In this document: one piece after another, positions 48,119-56,013 of the stretch
Layout: each line of letters starts with the position of its first letter
Numbering within the stretch: the first letter of the stretch is position 1
Assembly (NCBI GenBank): GCA_949283775.1
Contig: CASDTU010000023.1
Location: 1 to 58,310 of the forward strand
Origin: an uncultured Bacillota bacterium
GTDB taxonomy: Bacteria; Bacillota; Clostridia; Christensenellales; Borkfalkiaceae
Direction: 5' to 3'
Length of the DNA: 58,310 bases
Notes under the pieces: generated by a model
Databases searched by the model: none
Told to the model about the DNA's origin: nothing
The model's input: only the letters and a program-made list of their open reading frames with translations
Program-made: the position numbers and the translations under genes

Positions 48119-51040
48119 CTATGCCGGAATCTCTTCCGTTATATAGCATTCGATCACATCTCCGACTTTAATTCCGTCAAACCCTTCGATACTGACACCG
48201 CACTCAAAGCCGCCGGAAACTTCCTTGACGTCATCTTTAAACCGCTTTAACTGACGTACGGCCCCCTCTACGATCATAACATCGTCGCGATAAATGCGCA
48301 GTTTGCCTTGCCGTACAATTTTTCCTTCCGTTACATAGCAGCCCGCGACCATGCCGACGCCTGTAATTTTAAAGGTTTGCAACACGTCGCATTTTCCCGT
48401 CATGATCTCACGGTATTTCGGCGCAAGCATTCCTTTAAGCGCCGCCTGGATATCGTCTAACAGTTCATAAATGATCCTGTAAGAACGAACGTCTACTCCG
48501 CTGTGTTCCGCCAAATTTTTCGCCTTAGCATCCGGTCTTACGTTGAACCCGACAATGATCGCGTTCGAAGAATCTGCAAGCATTACATCCGATTCCGTGA
48601 TCGCGCCGGCACCGCTGTGAATAATATTCACGCGCACTTCATCGTTTGATAATTTCAGCAAAGATTGTTTTACGGCTTCCACAGAGCCCTGCACGTCGCC
48701 TTTTACGATAATATTCAAGCCCTTGATTTTTCCTTCGGCAATTTTATCAAACACATCGTCGAGGGTTACGCGCGTCTGCGATTTGATCATGGACTCGCTC
48801 TCTTTCCGCTTGCGCTCGTCCAAAACCTGTTTCATCAATTTATCCTGCTCCACCGCAATGATCGAATCCCCGGCATTGGGAACGTCTTCCAAACCTAAAA
48901 TCGAAACAGCCATGGAAGGACCGGCCGACTTGACGGTGCGGCCCTTGTCGTCGATCATCGCACGGACTCTTCCCATCGTCGTTCCCGAAATAACGTTGTC
49001 GCCCGTATGCAGCGTTCCGTTTTGAATCAGCACGGAGGCAACCGGCCCCTTGCCTTTGTCGAGCTTCGCTTCAATGATCGTGCCGCGTGCCATCTGATTC
49101 GGGTTCGCTTTATATTCGCGGACTTCCGCTATCAAATTGATCGATTCAAGCAGATTATCGATCCCTTCTCCGGTCTTTGCCGAAACGGGACATACGATCG
49201 CATCACCGCCCCATTCTTCGGGAACAAGGCCGCTATTCGTCAAGCCCTGCTTGACCTTTTCGAGGTTCGCTTCCGGTTTATCCATCTTATTGACGGCAAC
49301 AATGATCGGAACGTCCGCCGCTTTTGCATGATTGATCGCTTCAACCGTCTGCGGCATGATCCCGTCGTCAGCAGCCACTACAAGCACCACGATGTCGGTA
49401 ACCGAAGCGCCTCTGGCACGCATTGCCGTAAAAGCTTCATGTCCCGGCGTATCCAAAAACGTAATGATCTTGCCTCCGACGTTAACCGAATATGCGCCGA
49501 TATGCTGCGTAATACCGCCTGCCTCTCCCGCCGTTACATTCGAACTGCGGATCTTATCCAGCAAAGACGTTTTGCCGTGGTCGACGTGTCCCATTACCGT
49601 TACAACAGGCGGACGTGTTACTGCATTTTCATCGTTTTGATTTTCGCCCTGATAAATCTCGTCCAGCGCCTCTTCCGCCGTCTTTTCCGGCTTATATTCA
49701 AGCTCGATCCCCAAATCATTGGCTATATATGCCGCCGTATCGTAATCGATAGAGTCGTTGATCGTCTTTGCGATGCCCTCTTTAAACAAGCGTTTTGTAA
49801 TTTCTACCGCCGTAATGCCGAGCTTTTCACTTAAAACTTTTAAAGCGATATTTTCCGTCGTAACGACCGCATGCTCAATCTTGATCGTCTGAACGGCTTC
49901 TTGTTTCTGCTTCTTTACGCGAAGTTTTCTGTAACCGCTCTTATCCTCGTCGAAGTCGGATACCGACACCTGCTGTTTGATCAGAGCACGTTTGCTGACC
50001 GTACGTTTTTGTTCGACGTATTGTTTGTCAAACGCCGCTTTTTTCTTCGATGCAGCTAAATTTTTATTTTGCGCAACCGACGGAATAACGGGAGCTGCTG
50101 CCGCCGCATTGAAACGGTTTGCGGCAGGTGCTCGTCCGCCTGCCGCAGGACGAGTCTGCGTCCCCACAGCGTTCTTACCGTTGAATCTGCCCTGCTGACC
50201 TCCGGACAAATTCGGTTTCGGGCCATAAGGCTTTGATCCGGCCGGAGCAGATGCGTATCCGCCGCGAGGCGAGGTCTGCGCGCTGTTGTACGAAGGACGT
50301 ACTCCTTGCTGCGAGTTTGCATATGTTCCGCGCTGAGTATTTTGGAAATTACCGCCGCGCTCGCCTTGTCCCTGATATTGTCTTTCCGTGCGCGCGCCGC
50401 TTAGCATACGATCCGCCGTCGACCGTTCTGTATTCAACTGCGCCGCACGATTGGCATTTTGCTGTGCACGCCGCTCCGCATATTGCGTACGGATCACGCT
50501 CTCGCCGTTACTGCGGATTTGCGTCTTCGCTGTGATTTCAGCCGATGCGGATGAATTGGAAACAGATGTCTCTCCTTGCTTGATCGCCTCTTCTTTTTTC
50601 GGCGCAGTCTGATGATCCGCATCATTCAAAGAATCCGATGTGCCCGCTGCATCGACCGTCGGATGTTTTTTTACGGCCTGCGCGTTTTTTTCTTGAACAG
50701 CGTTAAGATCTTCCTCTGCCCTCGCCGTCGATTTTTCAGCCGCTTTCTCTGCCGGCGCTTCCGGTTTTGCGTTAGATTCGAAAGAGTCAACTTTTTCCGT
50801 AAAATTCTGTGCTTCAGACTTGCTTTCCAATTCTGCGGCATGCGCAGTCTCTTCCGCTTTGGATAATTCTTCCTGTAAGCGTTTTGCCGCCGCATTTTCC
50901 AAATCTGAAAGTTTACGGAGAATATCGCTCACTTTTTTCTCCGTACTTTGCACATTTTTCAACAAGGCACCGATCCCTTCCGTTCCCAGAAGAGACCCTA
51001 TATTTTCGATATTCGCATAATTCTTTTTGCTGTCTGCCAT
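48119..51040 (-). CDS. infB: Translation initiation factor IF-2
   Basis: GTPase that places initiator tRNA on the 30S subunit. I use the ATG at 51040 (973 residues, start [13 protein letters not shown]); the frame is open to 51133, but that part overlaps the L7Ae gene. TAAGATG joins the L7Ae stop and this start, so coupling is expected; GGGAGG is 14 nt upstream. A long low-complexity N-terminal half (Glu/Lys/Ala, then Gln/Asn/Arg/Gly/Pro-rich, to about residue 370) precedes IF2-N ([17 protein letters not shown]). The G domain has [20 protein letters not shown] and NKMDKPEA, and domains II-IV follow. All motifs are present. Confidence 0.96.
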
Positions 51041-51041
51041 C

Positions 51042-51371
51042 TTATTGAATGTTGCCTCCCGAATATTTTCTAAAATTCTCATCTTCCGCCTGTAAAATTG
51101 CATTTGCAAGGTTTTTATCCCGAACCGCCGCAATTTTACAGTTCTCTCTTCCCGTTATTCTCTCCAATTCACCGGAAAGTAGAATCATCATTTCGCAATG
51201 AAACTTATCCATCAGTTTTATGGCGCTCTTTTTCGCATTTTCTGACGCGCCGCTGCAAAGCAAGAGCAAAAACACATCTTTTCTCTGCGTTGCGATCGCA
51301 TTGAAGCCGCAAGTCAATTTACCTGCTTTTATACAAAATCCTATAAATGTTTCAGCTCTGCTTTTTTTCAA
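51042..51371 (-). CDS. rplGA: L7Ae/L30e/YlxQ-type RNA-binding protein
   Basis: 109-residue protein of the L7Ae/L30e/S12e fold (FIGFCIKAGKLTCGFNAIAT, LLLLCSGASENAKKSAI), the homolog of Bacillus YlxQ/RplGA, thought to bind kink-turn RNA. It overlaps ylxR by 20 bp and infB begins 1 nt after its stop, so the three are tightly coupled. The KAGKL-x-x-G core is preserved. The precise RNA target is unknown. Confidence 0.88.
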   Translation of the reverse strand: MKKSRAETFIGFCIKAGKLTCGFNAIATQRKDVFLLLLCSGASENAKKSAIKLMDKFHCEMMILLSGELERITGRENCKIAAVRDKNLANAILQAEDENFRKYSGGNIQ

Positions 51372-51705: not shown

Positions 51706-52809
51706 TTATTCCTCAGACGGTTCGTCATCCTCGCTCATCTCAGCGGGCACTTGCAAACTTTCCATTTTGGCAGCCGCGCTCTCGCTCTTAACGTCGATTT
51801 TCCAGCCCGTGAGCCGCGCCGCAAGGCGCGCGTTTTGCCCGTCTCTTCCGATCGCCAAAGACAATTTATCGTCCGGAACGACCGCAACGGCAGACTTCTC
51901 ATCGACCTGCGTGACCGAAATCACTTTCGCAGGCGAAAGTGATTTCGCTATAAATTCAAGCGCGTTCTCGCTCCAAGGAATGATATCGACCTTTTCTCCG
52001 CCGAGCTCCGCAACGACCGCATTTACGCGGGCGCCTTTGTTGCCCACGCAGGCGCCGACCGCATCGACCTGCGGATCTTCGCTGTAAATCGCCATCTTCG
52101 TGCGCTGGCCCGCTTCACGGGAAATCGATTTAATTTGCACGGTACCGGATTTAATTTCCGGTACTTCGTTTTCAAAAAGCCGCTTGACAAGTCCGGCAGA
52201 CGTCCTGGACACCAAAACCTGCGCACCGCGGCCGCTGTTTTTGATGTTTTTGACATATACCTTCAATCGGTCATTGACTTCGTATTTTTCTCCCGGGACC
52301 TGATCTTGCGGCAGCATTACGCCCTCGATCTGACCCTTTCCGAGTTCCACATAAACATTCTTTGCATCGACTTTGCGCACGACGCAGCTCATCAGCTCGT
52401 CTTTTTTGTCGGAAAACTCGTTTAAAGTATTATCTCGCTCCGTTTCGTGCAGTTTTTGCAAGATCACTTGCTTCGCCGTCTGTGCGGCGATACGGCCGAA
52501 GTCCTTCGGAACAAATTCTTCATAGACCAGATCACCCAATTTATAGCTCTTCTTTAACTGCTGCGCCTCGGCCAACGAAATTTCTTTTTCCTTATCAACG
52601 ACTTCTTCCACGGCAGTCCGAACCGTATAGTATTTGATACTGTTTTTCTCCGGATTGATCTTGATATCTACGTCCCCTGCGCCGCCCTCGTACTGCTTTT
52701 TATACGCCGAAATCAACGCATTCCGCAACGCTTCGATAAATATCTCGCTGCTGATACCTTTTTCTGCTTCCAAATCCGCCAAAGCCTCAAAGAACTCTTT
52801 GCTAACCAT
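51706..52809 (-). CDS. nusA: Transcription termination/antitermination factor NusA
   Basis: RNA polymerase-binding factor that promotes pausing and hairpin termination. 367 residues: N-terminal polymerase-binding domain (about 1-125), S1 domain (about 130-200), KH1 and KH2 (about 205-345; GNKGARVNAVVAELGGEKVD and AIGRDGQNARLAARLTGWKID). A short acidic tail (EMSEDDEPSEE) follows instead of the acidic repeats of proteobacteria; the length fits Firmicutes. It lies 37 bp after rimP. Confidence 0.96.
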   Translation of the reverse strand: MVSKEFFEALADLEAEKGISSEIFIEALRNALISAYKKQYEGGAGDVDIKINPEKNSIKYYTVRTAVEEVVDKEKEISLAEAQQLKKSYKLGDLVYEEFVPKDFGRIAAQTAKQVILQKLHETERDNTLNEFSDKKDELMSCVVRKVDAKNVYVELGKGQIEGVMLPQDQVPGEKYEVNDRLKVYVKNIKNSGRGAQVLVSRTSAGLVKRLFENEVPEIKSGTVQIKSISREAGQRTKMAIYSEDPQVDAVGACVGNKGARVNAVVAELGGEKVDIIPWSENALEFIAKSLSPAKVISVTQVDEKSAVAVVPDDKLSLAIGRDGQNARLAARLTGWKIDVKSESAAAKMESLQVPAEMSEDDEPSEE

Positions 52810-52846: not shown

Positions 52847-53320
52847 TTATTCGAAATCAATTGCCTGTGATATTTTTACAATCTGTGTCAGATTCAACTT
52901 TAAAATTTCGCCCAGTTTATCGACCGTGATGTTTCCTGCCTGCGCATTATACTCCAGCAGGATCGCCTCAAAAAATTTCTGTCCTTTCAGCGGGGCATAA
53001 AGTTTAATCTCCACTTTCTTACCCAGGTTCCTTAAAAAGTCTTTATCCTTTTTAAACGGTCTGTCCAATCCGGGGCTGCTGACATTCAGCGTGTAGCCCT
53101 GCCCGAACGTCGGATCAAGCTCATCCAACACCGGATCGGCTGCCATGTGAAATTTTTCACAGGTATTTAAATCGATCCCGCCTTCCGCATCCGTATCCAA
53201 ATAAATGGTCAAAGAAGGATTCTTACCCTGATGAAAAACAATTTCATAAATCGAAACACCGCACCTTTGGGCGACGGGCGTTAAAGCCTGTTCAATTTCT
53301 TCCAACGGTTTTACTTTCAT
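52847..53320 (-). CDS. rimP: Ribosome maturation factor RimP
   Basis: Assists 30S assembly. 157 residues with the RimP signature (IYLDTDAEGGIDLNTCEKF and LNVSSPGLDRPFKKDKDFLRN) and a C-terminal SH3-like part. It is first in the rimP-nusA operon with a promoter (53404-53432), a candidate operator and a hairpin leader. Confidence 0.95.
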   Translation of the reverse strand: MKVKPLEEIEQALTPVAQRCGVSIYEIVFHQGKNPSLTIYLDTDAEGGIDLNTCEKFHMAADPVLDELDPTFGQGYTLNVSSPGLDRPFKKDKDFLRNLGKKVEIKLYAPLKGQKFFEAILLEYNAQAGNITVDKLGEILKLNLTQIVKISQAIDFE

Positions 53321-53352: not shown

Positions 53353-53376
53353 TTGAGAGCGGAAACCCACTCTCAA
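53353..53376 (-). promoter_or_regulatory. Leader hairpin of the rimP-nusA operon
   Basis: On the minus strand TTGAGAGTGGG pairs with CCGCTCTCAA around a short loop (7 perfect pairs, a T-G wobble, 2 G-C pairs), followed by an ATCTTTTTA tract, about 33 bp before the rimP ATG. It resembles the terminator-like GAGTGGG leader I recall upstream of rimP in other Firmicutes, probably for NusA-dependent attenuation. Confidence 0.6.
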
Positions 53377-53403: not shown

Positions 53404-53432
53404 ATTATACCATATCTTTACGCTTTTGGCAA
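53404..53432 (-). promoter_or_regulatory. Promoter of the rimP-nusA-infB operon
   Basis: TTGCCA (53427-53432) and TATAAT (53404-53409) are 17 bp apart on the minus strand. The -35 lies within the last codons of the polC-like gene, so the operon can be transcribed separately from it. Confidence 0.7.
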
Positions 53433-54947
53433 GCATTTTTTGGCTTTTATCAACTCGATAAATATTTTTGCGGTCGTAAGCGCATCGTCCCATGCGCGGT
53501 GATGATTGAAGGTGATTCCGTAATGATCCGCCAACGTATTCAGCTTATAATTCGGCAAAAAGAGCATGCTTTGGGCGATCGAAAGCGTATCCAATGTACG
53601 AAACTCAAAGGGATATTCTTCCTGCTGCGCATAATAATGCACAAATTTGTAGTCAAACTGCACGTTGTGCCCAACAAGCAAGCATCCGTCACAAAACTTG
53701 TAAAAATCCGGGATCACTTCCGATATTTTCGGAGCGCCTTTGAGCATCTCGTCCGTGATGCCCGTCAGCTTAACAATCTCATCGTCGAGCTTCCGCTCCG
53801 GATCGACCAAGGTAGTGAATTTTTCACGGATCTCTCCGCCGATGATTTTGACCGCGCCGATCTCTGTGATCGCATCCATCTTCCCGCCCGTCGGAGTATT
53901 GACGAGCCCGGTCGTCTCCAAGTCAAAAACGACGAACGTATTTTTCACGAGATCTTCCGGCAAAACGTCCTGCGCAAATAAGTTCATCTGATTGTAATCG
54001 GTAAGTTTCTCCGGAAACACCTTACTGTAATGAAGCGGCACCGCTTTCCCTTGCTTCTTTTCCGGAACGAAATCTGCCGGCATGGAACCGCGATTGATAA
54101 ATTTTGCCGTAAAACTCAGGCGTTCGTTAAACATTTCATTGCTGCCTGTACAGACGATCCGATCCCCCTCTTTCAAAGCCCGAATTTTCTCTTCCGTTTT
54201 CTTTTTTATAAAATACGACAACGTCATCCGATCAGTCGTGTCGGATATCGTAAAACGCAAATACGGCTTGCCTTTTTGCGATACCCTTTCCTGAATATAC
54301 GTAATTTCTCCGCAAACCGTCAGCGATTCGCTCGTAAAATTGCAATCCGCCAGATACGTCGCGATTTTGGGTACGTTTGCCTCGTCGATGGTTTCAAAAT
54401 CGGCGATCGGAAATGTGCGAGCCGGACGAAAATCAAAGGGTTCGTCCTGCGTCTCTTCTTCCGTTTCTTCGGGGGGCACCTTCTCCTTGTCGACGAGCTC
54501 TCCGCGAAAAGAACCGCAAAAATTTTTGGAAAGCATCTTTTCGATTCCCGGCAACAGCTGTTCATTCTTTTCAAAAAAGCCTCTTTCCGCGGCGTCGACC
54601 CCGAATTGGAAGCGAATCGGTTCGCCGGGGATCACTTCTATGTCTTCCGCCCGAATACACGCCGCCGCAGCTCGATGATTCCGATCCAAATATTCCAAAA
54701 TTTTTTGCCGGACGATCTGCGGATCGGCTACCACTTTTTTGATTTGCAACTCCGCACTTAGATTTTGCGGCACCGCTTCTTTTGCCAGCTCCTGCGCCAA
54801 GCGGACGCTTTCCTGTGAATACGCTCTGTCCGTAATGATATGAAATTTACAGGATAACGTTTCTTTTTTCAGCGTTATACTGTTTAAGACCGCGCTTTCA
54901 AACCCGTTTATATTTCTCAGCTTCTCTAAAAATACCTGTTTGTCCAT
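53418..54947 (-). CDS. PolC-derived protein: N-terminal, OB and DEDDh exonuclease domains only
   Basis: 509 residues. The PolC-type N-terminal part is at about 1-175, an OB-fold segment (VCGEITYIQERVSQKGKPYL) at about 195-300, then a DEDDh exonuclease: FVVFDLETTGL (Asp342, Glu344), GHNVQFDYKF (Asp432) and HRAWDDALTTA (His483, Asp488). PolC, the main Firmicute replicase of about 1400 residues, has a PHP domain interrupted by the exonuclease, followed by the polymerase. Both PHP halves and the whole polymerase are missing; no remnant follows, since the rimP promoter overlaps the stop. The location between ispG and rimP is exactly the polC locus. It may be a proofreading exonuclease acting with a separate polymerase, or a reduced gene kept for another repair role. 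Confidence 0.85.
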   Translation of the reverse strand: MDKQVFLEKLRNINGFESAVLNSITLKKETLSCKFHIITDRAYSQESVRLAQELAKEAVPQNLSAELQIKKVVADPQIVRQKILEYLDRNHRAAAACIRAEDIEVIPGEPIRFQFGVDAAERGFFEKNEQLLPGIEKMLSKNFCGSFRGELVDKEKVPPEETEEETQDEPFDFRPARTFPIADFETIDEANVPKIATYLADCNFTSESLTVCGEITYIQERVSQKGKPYLRFTISDTTDRMTLSYFIKKKTEEKIRALKEGDRIVCTGSNEMFNERLSFTAKFINRGSMPADFVPEKKQGKAVPLHYSKVFPEKLTDYNQMNLFAQDVLPEDLVKNTFVVFDLETTGLVNTPTGGKMDAITEIGAVKIIGGEIREKFTTLVDPERKLDDEIVKLTGITDEMLKGAPKISEVIPDFYKFCDGCLLVGHNVQFDYKFVHYYAQQEEYPFEFRTLDTLSIAQSMLFLPNYKLNTLADHYGITFNHHRAWDDALTTAKIFIELIKAKKCLPKA

Positions 54948-54972: not shown

Positions 54973-56013
54973 TTACTTCAATAAATTCAAAACCATTTTC
55001 TTAAAATATCCCGGAGCAATGTCTGCCGACACCGATTCCGTCGGCTTGCCATGCCGAAAAATCACGCATTTCTCTTTTCCGCCTGCAATCCCGATATCGC
55101 AATCGTTTGCTTCACCCGGTCCGTTCACAACGCATCCCATCACGGCAATCTTGAGCGGCTTTTTGCTGGCAAAAGTCATTTTTTCAATTTCCTGCGCGAG
55201 TTGCATACTGTTCCATTCACAGCGTCCGCAAGTGGGACAGGACACGACTTCCACATATTCTTTTTCCAAACCGCAGGCGCGCAGTATCCTTTTGGCCGCA
55301 TAGACCTCCTCCAACGGATCGTCCGTCAGAGAGACACGGATTGTATCGCCGATCCCGTCCAACAGCAACGCGCCGATTCCGACGCTGCTCTTTACGACGC
55401 CGCTCTCTTTCGTACCCGCTTCCGTAACGCCCAAATGCAACGGATAGTCTGTCTTTTTTGCAATTTTTCTGTATGCTTCAACAGTCAATGGCACCGAGGA
55501 CGCCTTTACCGATATGACGATATCGCCGATCCCGTACTTTTCCAAGATGCCGACGTTGCAGAGTGCACTCTCCACCAAAGCGTCCGCAGTGCGGCCGTAT
55601 TTCTCCAAAAACGTCTTTTCGATACTGCCCGTATTGGCGCCGACCCGTATCGGAATCTTATGCGCACGCACGCAGTCGGCGACCAAGCGAATCTTATCTT
55701 CGTTTCCGATATTTCCGGGATTGATGCGGATTTTATCCGCGCCGTTTTCGATCGCCAGCACCGCCAGCTTCGCCGAAAAATGAATGTCAGCAACAAGCGG
55801 AACCGATGAAGATTCCTTGATTTTTTTTAATGCCCTTGCATCTTCTTCGTCGCGGATCGCCACCCGAACAATTTCACAGCCGGCCGCAGCAAGTTTTTCG
55901 ATTTGCCCGATCGTCGTTTCCGTATCGGACGTATGCGCCGTCGTCATCGACTGGATGCGGACAGGCTCCCCTCCGCCGAGAAATACGCGGCCGACCTGTA
56001 CTTTCTTACTCAT
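54973..56013 (-). CDS. ispG: 4-hydroxy-3-methylbut-2-en-1-yl diphosphate synthase (flavodoxin)
   Basis: Fe-S enzyme of the MEP isoprenoid route converting MEcPP to HMBPP. 346 residues: barrel start VGRVFLGGGEPVRIQSMT, DIHFSAKLA, RINPGNIG, and the Fe-S domain with SCPTCGRCEW and GCVVNGPGEANDCDIGIAGG. Length and cysteines are standard. It is 25 bp upstream of the polC-like gene and 36 bp after nrdR, in the standard dxr/ispG-polC neighbourhood, though dxr is not in this window. Confidence 0.96.
   Translation of the reverse strand: MSKKVQVGRVFLGGGEPVRIQSMTTAHTSDTETTIGQIEKLAAAGCEIVRVAIRDEEDARALKKIKESSSVPLVADIHFSAKLAVLAIENGADKIRINPGNIGNEDKIRLVADCVRAHKIPIRVGANTGSIEKTFLEKYGRTADALVESALCNVGILEKYGIGDIVISVKASSVPLTVEAYRKIAKKTDYPLHLGVTEAGTKESGVVKSSVGIGALLLDGIGDTIRVSLTDDPLEEVYAAKRILRACGLEKEYVEVVSCPTCGRCEWNSMQLAQEIEKMTFASKKPLKIAVMGCVVNGPGEANDCDIGIAGGKEKCVIFRHGKPTESVSADIAPGYFKKMVLNLLK

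Follow-up and report, generated by a model that had tools for sequence, protein, structure and literature searches.

A 2026 survey of complete genomes recognised three combinations of bacterial replicases, namely DnaE1 only, PolC with DnaE1, and PolC with DnaE3 (PMC12926913, in part). A survey from 2013 reported that some Clostridia have a single DnaE1, that PolC lacks its exonuclease in some Clostridia and Negativicutes, and that the set of PolC plus DnaE1 was experimentally uncharacterised at that time; fragments without a polymerase site were removed from that survey (PMC3919608, in part). According to an excerpt of PMC12592400, the PolC exonuclease is inserted in the PHP domain, between PHP strands three and four, and the N-terminal domain is unresolved in the structure of the Enterococcus faecium enzyme. 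In the titles and abstract openings of the CC-licensed PubMed Central papers that our searches listed, no stand-alone protein made of the N-terminal, OB and exonuclease parts of PolC is described.

Such a protein is encoded in the window, i.e. the whole stretch of 58,310 nucleotides analysed here, where the following features were found:

53418..54947, minus strand: short polC-derived gene of 509 aa, with N-terminal domain, OB fold, clamp-motif linker and DEDDh exonuclease (ORF, ATG start)
54483..54947, minus strand: PolC N-terminal domain, residues 1-155, two alpha/beta subdomains in the AlphaFold2 model (hhalign against the full PolC N-terminus, secondary structure)
54351..54482, minus strand: acidic, partly disordered linker, residues 156-199 (pLDDT below 50 at residues 156-172)
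54078..54350, minus strand: OB fold, residues 200-290 (Pfam PF01336; hhalign)
53943..54077, minus strand: linker, residues 291-335, in place of the first PHP half of full PolC (OB-exonuclease spacing, absence of the PHP motif)
53976..53990, minus strand: putative clamp-binding motif QMNLF, residues 320-324 (Qxx[LIMF][FL] in 97/103 aligned short forms; motif as defined in an excerpt of PMC12309361)
53439..53942, minus strand: DEDDh 3'-5' exonuclease domain, residues 336-503, with D342, E344, D432, H483 and D488 (Pfam, structure comparison, alignment)
54973..56013, minus strand: ispG, upstream neighbour, 25 bp from the short gene (ORF, locus comparison)
52847..53320, minus strand: rimP, downstream neighbour (ORF, locus comparison)
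51706-52809: nusA, after rimP (gene order)
48119-51133: infB, after nusA (gene order)
53404..53432, minus strand: promoter-like match TTGCCA, 17 nt, TATAAT, over the 3' end of the short gene (consensus only, not above shuffles)

The Pfam scan placed an Exonuclease domain (PF00929) at residues 339-496 (E 3.5e-38) and the OB fold match at residues 210-283 (E 4e-7), and found neither a PHP nor a polymerase domain; the C-family palm with its catalytic aspartates is absent from the 509 residues. The PolC model NF001688 matched the exonuclease part, scoring 173.2 bits where its cut-off is 873; when run on the genome, it matched the N-terminal part as well (profile positions 21-328, E 1.3e-5). Profile-profile comparison with hhalign recovered both the N-terminal domain (96.8%, E 2e-10) and the OB fold (99.2%, E 2e-19) of full PolC in the short protein. 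TIGR00573, an exonuclease domain subfamily, was above its cut-off (119.4 vs 71.5 bits) and epsilon equivalogs were under theirs (e.g. TIGR01406, 87.4 vs 222.7 bits), and the best solved relative by sequence was the Thermotoga maritima PolC exonuclease (2p1j, E 8.3e-35). An AlphaFold2 model of the protein, obtained from a 16-row alignment, reached a mean pLDDT of 84.5 and a pTM of 0.50. Its top Foldseek match by E-value was E. faecium PolC (9qpc_A, 402 columns), with an rmsd of 19.4; as modelled, the single domains match and their arrangement differs. The five DEDDh residues are kept in 103-104 of 105 aligned rows, two of which are cut full PolCs (L159, L168) that were left out of later counts. 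The preliminary description of this gene had assigned it only the N-terminal, OB and exonuclease parts of PolC, in 509 residues, with Asp342, Glu344, Asp432, His483 and Asp488 intact and no PHP or polymerase domain, and it was right on all these points, down to the residue positions.

The position of the gene, also proposed in that description to be exactly that of polC, agrees with what is seen in relatives, as the order ispG-X-rimP-nusA-infB is common to the short gene and to the full polC, a comparison that extends to the full order where the fetched stretch has all genes, some stretches being partial. A rimP promoter had been placed over the end of the gene, and a match to 11 of 12 consensus positions does overlap it (53432-53404, minus strand), but such matches are no commoner than in shuffled sequence, with two in the region against a shuffle mean of 3.1. 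Between this match and rimP lies a hairpin of ten pairs followed by a T run (53353-53376, minus strand), which may act as a terminator or leader attenuator for the rimP-nusA-infB operon.

E. faecium PolC (9QPC) has the same type of locus, N-terminal domain, OB fold and DEDDh exonuclease as the short protein, which differs from PolC in having no PHP domain, palm, thumb, fingers or C-terminal clamp motif, and in having the PHP-N half swapped for a linker with an internal clamp motif. The distance from the end of the OB fold to the start of the exonuclease is 49 residues (45-59) in 103 short forms, against 94 residues (87-127) in 49 full PolCs, and the PHP motif H.H[TS] between the two domains is present in 49/49 full PolCs vs 0/103 short forms. 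From this short spacing and the loss of H.H[TS] ahead of the exonuclease it follows that both PHP halves were removed, the half ahead of the exonuclease included; since plain truncation would have left PHP-N in place there, the change is not a simple truncation. One short form of 448 aa (L278, from G066 in f30) seemingly consists of N-terminal domain and exonuclease, without the OB fold.

The motif Q-x-x-[LIMF]-[FL] is present in the linker of 97 of the 103 aligned short forms, which, as far as sequence tells, gives them a feature of the DnaQ/epsilon type. Q320 is kept in 99/105 and F324 in 94/105 aligned rows, in the midst of variable linker columns, and residues 320-325 are disordered in the AlphaFold2 model. 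Four exo-active short forms lack the motif (L048, L126, L127, L216). An excerpt of PMC12309361 defines the clamp-binding motif as QxxLF, in which positions 1, 4 and 5 are critical, and places it at the very C-terminus of Bacillus subtilis PolC, from which it could not be deleted. Of 56 closed PolC-related frames of at least 900 aa in our genomes, 50 match the motif within their last 25 residues. The short protein is without the C-terminal clamp motif of PolC and has a putative internal one instead. E. coli DnaQ/epsilon is likewise a separate DEDDh exonuclease paired with a DnaE1-type polymerase. It also has a clamp motif, which is placed after the exonuclease domain, whereas the putative motif of the short protein comes before it; the short protein differs further in its derivation from PolC and in its length of ~510 aa, with the extra N-terminal and OB domains.

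The genome of the window is a draft of 1.83 Mb in 94 contigs, about 90% complete, which gives some room to the idea that the gene is a decaying relic or an assembly artefact. An orthologue, however, was found in 35 of 36 same-genus genomes, at 62-76% identity and with no internal stop, the one genome without it (G034) being 77% complete, and an assembly error would not account for the same short gene in so many genomes. Selection was analysed within the genus on 30 sequences, with synonymous sites near saturation for most pairs: dN/dS was 0.07-0.17 in the four pairs with dS below 0.75 and 0.07 to 0.36 over the 15 lowest-dS pairs, the values of 0.25-0.36 coming from some more distant pairs, and the median pN/pS over all pairs was 0.32. 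Over the 60 lowest-dS pairs, the clamp-motif segment (0.21) and the exonuclease (0.24) had the smallest pN/pS, followed by the OB fold (0.40), the linker (0.45) and the N-terminal domain (0.51). These ratios indicate that the short gene is under purifying selection. With dN/dS well below 1 and open frames conserved across the genus, and with the gene present in many families besides, we rejected pseudogene and assembly error, and a relic or artefact of any kind is hardly conceivable.

Beyond the genus, we surveyed 297 genomes of the order in 33 families, mostly draft metagenome assemblies of varied completeness; the GTDB name of the order is Christensenellales. In 144 of the 297 the best match had an E-value no higher than 1e-83. 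The open frames that contain these matches are 266-759 aa long, the shortest being partial or cut at contig ends, and none of the matches lay in a full-length PolC. A few of the 144 genomes show one in-frame stop in the matched stretch. The 144 short-form genomes fall in 14 families (f1, f3, f6, f8, f9, f10, f14, f18, f19, f20, f24, f28, f29, f32), and a decayed short form was found in the five f16 genomes read, so that the short form, by these matches, spans about 15 families of the order. A full PolC of ~1300-1500 aa was seen in f2, f4, f5, f11, f12, f13, f15, f17, f21, f22, f23, f25 and f33, as judged from the member read in each; we left unclassified 18 genomes that gave no match at E 1e-15, together with poorly read families such as f7 (51% complete). 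Among named records, the closest are MAGs of uncultured Clostridia, including one from chicken at 67% identity, and Candidatus Coproplasma at 44%; NCBI assigns the latter to Clostridia, Eubacteriales incertae sedis. We also searched 391 genomes across the class at E 1e-68. Of the 51 matches, 15 were short forms, each from this order, and 36 had the exonuclease domain within open frames of 986-1490 aa; no short form was found outside the order among these genomes at this threshold, which a strongly diverged form could escape.

We built a DnaE tree of 53 rows (36 short and 17 full, G042 with its long DnaE row left out) with a quick method and rooted it on five class outgroups. The short-form genomes group together in a single clade (SH-aLRT 100), which is nested among the full-PolC families and has the full-PolC genome G048 as its sister. 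Because of this nesting, the short form is derived and not ancestral. A marker tree of NusA, InfB and IspG, for which we required two or more markers per row and so kept 25 of 35, likewise has the short-form genomes in one clade (100/100). This limit excludes the full-PolC genome G056, which in the sparse 35-row tree, represented by IspG only, falls in the short clade beside G053 (95/95); the grouping of its IspG (L196) with that of G053 (L041) may be due to ispG transfer or a mixed bin. An unusually long stem branch in DnaE was also considered and dropped, its length being 0.34 in DnaE vs 0.24 in the markers.

In the genome of the window no PolC match was over the NF001688 cut-off, and the single C-family polymerase is a DnaE of 1201 aa on contig C17 (one PF07733 match), with the catalytic sequence PDFDVDF, a clamp motif QMSLF and an intact nine-residue PHP site, whose closest solved relatives are DnaE-type alpha subunits. 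The clamp-loader family PF12169 had no match in this genome, nor did it in Bacillus subtilis. One PF07733 match each was found in all 11 short-form genomes of other families surveyed (G038, G041, G043, G044, G045, G049, G051, G053, G054, G055, G059), and DnaE plus PolC in 11 of 12 full-form genomes, G047 showing PolC only; G042 (51% complete, seven matches) was excluded from this survey. A second survey found one polymerase in 37 of 38 short-form genomes of the order, several of the 38 being 99-100% complete, and no polymerase match in the remaining one (G129, 79% complete, with the short protein in pieces only); the full-form genome G069 and five class outgroups had DnaE and PolC in 6/6 cases. 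Among the 37 genomes of the same genus, the window's included, a DnaE match was seen in 32, and the five without one are 66-81% complete. As a separate observation, four genomes (G002:C10, G015:C5, G017:C21, G036:C8) carry an ORF of 320-330 aa whose match is confined to the initial part of the C-family palm. In G002 and G015 this ORF shares its contig with a separate small DnaQ-like exonuclease; these ORFs possibly belong to a mobile element with a split C-family polymerase.

The preliminary description had offered two options, a split replicase and the replacement of PolC by DnaE with the remnant kept as an accessory exonuclease. A split replicase, with the PolC polymerase half elsewhere in the genome, is very improbable given that the only PF07733 match in the window's genome is DnaE and that in the short-form genomes tested we saw one polymerase at most, and it was rejected, as no detached PolC polymerase turned up in any of them. 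The second option fits the single DnaE and the absent PolC. Of the outcomes that the same description had named as speaking against it, namely a full polC elsewhere (a C-terminal piece was sought as well), neutral drift and assembly error, all were looked at and none was found; comparison of the locus in relatives, also suggested there, gave the short form shared within the genus and its purifying selection. Much as in DnaE1-only replicases, one DnaE1 is here the sole C-family polymerase; the difference is that the PolC exonuclease module was kept and remodelled. The exonuclease-less PolC mentioned above also shows exonuclease and polymerase to be separable, and is the reciprocal case, with the polymerase kept and the exonuclease lost. 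Within the order, two f11 genomes (G217:C77, G331:C65) have PolC-size frames of 1435-1444 aa in which the exonuclease region is matched weakly or not at all, which suggests decay of the PolC exonuclease in these two; another f11 genome, G046, has a normal exonuclease match.

DnaE itself differs between the two groups of genomes. In aligned columns, its clamp motif is at the usual place in 34/36 short rows and 16/16 readable full rows, the motif being degenerate in two short-form genomes (G059, G072), and the PHP signature HHDHEHCDH is kept in 35/35 readable short rows and 17/17 full rows. A segment falling between E. coli alpha residues 463 and 483, a stretch that we take to be thumb, has exactly 26 residues in 17/17 PolC-bearing genomes (12 of the order, five outgroups) and 27-57 residues in 36/36 short-form genomes, only 27 in two of them. 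The exonuclease lies on top of the thumb in E. coli epsilon and below it in PolC (PMC12592400, in part). Because the exonuclease adjoins the thumb in both, the longer segment would be a candidate docking change; it need not be the docking site, since two rows gain a single residue and the segment is also long in lineages whose exonuclease is dead.

Eighteen of the short proteins read are exo-dead (L206, L049, L258-L263, L265-L267, L269, L271-L273, L280, L285 and L287; the 105 rows hold two of them, and sixteen more were fetched later). They come from f16, f19 (not genus g96) and f32 (genus g85), are 484-551 aa long with N-terminal domain and OB fold kept, and 16 of them have none of the five DEDDh residues, the other two keeping one. 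In the clamp motif, the Q is kept in 18/18 and the final F/L is lost in 17/18, three times to Y, with G121 ambiguous. Exo-active relatives in f19 (G208) and f32 (G091, G308) keep both the catalytic residues and the motif, and the joint decay of motif and active site suggests that clamp binding serves the exonuclease. Another DnaQ-like exonuclease was seen in 12 of the 18 exo-dead genomes, weakly in G121 and with an in-frame stop in G158. By a hand count, which may include fragments of a single gene as second matches, 11 of 18 exo-dead genomes had at least two matches at E 1e-15, vs 18 of the 144 strong-match genomes. In the exo-dead genomes a different exonuclease may thus frequently stand in.

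The persistence of these proteins suggests a second, structural role, and a likely one. A stronger form of this idea is that the protein is mainly a non-catalytic scaffold, whose N-terminal domain and OB fold would bridge DnaE1, the clamp loader or ssDNA, with a dispensable exonuclease. The exo-dead forms, with one DEDDh residue at most and their N-terminal domain and OB fold still kept, and the other DnaQ-like exonuclease in most of their genomes, speak for it, and the exonuclease could indeed be dispensable, because every readable DnaE1 keeps the PHP signature. Nonetheless, we regard a scaffold as unlikely, if worth keeping in mind, since outside the exo-dead lineages the catalytic residues are kept almost throughout and within the genus the exonuclease is among the most constrained parts. 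The short-form exonuclease is probably a second proofreader beside the PHP site of DnaE1, a status that would explain its catalytic loss in three families with the rest of the protein kept for a structural job.

By its derivation, its domain content, its clamp motif and the absence of a PolC polymerase in the genomes tested, the gene is best described as a remodelled polC. We consider it probable, if some way from secure, that the PolC polymerase was lost once, that DnaE1 took over, and that what remained of PolC turned into an exonuclease tethered to the clamp and working in trans, as an analogue of epsilon. In the ancestor of the clade of ~15 families, PolC lost its PHP domain (both halves flanking the exonuclease) and the polymerase body, and DnaE1 would now copy both strands. 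The remnant would occupy the DnaN ring's second cleft, next to a DnaE1 that has its own clamp motif, would be held further by its N-terminal domain and perhaps by the DnaE thumb insertion, and would trim mismatched 3' ends left by DnaE1, as an independently evolved counterpart of E. coli epsilon. Binding to DnaN, docking on DnaE1 and proofreading in trans are steps that we infer from sequence comparisons. With regard to docking, domain V of E. coli tau binds alpha. The N-terminal subdomains of PolC are related to this domain (PMC12926913, in part), and kinship and binding together suggest the N-terminal domain as a contact with DnaE1.

Alternatively, the protein could be a repair or recombination exonuclease that uses the clamp away from the replication fork. 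Clamp motifs are common to replication and repair proteins (PMC12309361, in part), and DnaE1 has an intact PHP proofreading site of its own. This reading is nevertheless rather improbable, as the locus descends from a replicase, the PolC N-terminal and OB parts are kept, and on the tree the change coincides with the absence of PolC polymerase and with the change in DnaE. The role at the replisome claimed in the preliminary description on the strength of the kept N-terminal parts still has to be stated conditionally, and the conserved clamp-binding motif backs it more directly than those parts do. If the clamp-tethered exonuclease does work in trans, the clade might hold a fourth kind of bacterial replicase, made of DnaE1 and a PolC-derived exonuclease docked through its tau-V-like domain and the thumb insertion of DnaE, with a single origin and a later, purely structural function in three families; this wider proposal we advance tentatively, with slightly less than even confidence.

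The short-form genomes also bear on the strand bias attributed to PolC. For the short form we took G229, sampled as 20 blocks of 20 kb on a single 824-kb contig; of its 277 ORFs with at least 150 aa, 230 lie on the positive-GC-skew strand, and in the GC-rich G069 (full PolC, 20 blocks) 177 of 303 do, by a crude method in which antisense ORFs in GC-rich DNA inflate the counts and each form is represented by one genome. A exceeds T on the positive-GC-skew strand in 19 of the 20 blocks of G229. In the window (1-58310), the minus strand carries 34 of the 37 called ORFs, and the GC skew is -0.147. Strong strand bias can therefore persist without the PolC polymerase, in one genome. It has been put forward that purine asymmetry may warrant PolC (PMC4070872, in part), and the bias of G229, with its excess of G plus A in spite of the missing PolC polymerase, is relevant to how PolC, leading-strand gene bias and purine asymmetry are connected.

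The gut bacteria of this clade would be without the polymerase target of PolC-directed antibiotics such as ibezapolstat. More generally, the clade is a natural experiment in which the polymerase of PolC was removed and its proofreading half kept, and it can show what task PolC has in Clostridia and whether its exonuclease serves DnaE1 in trans.
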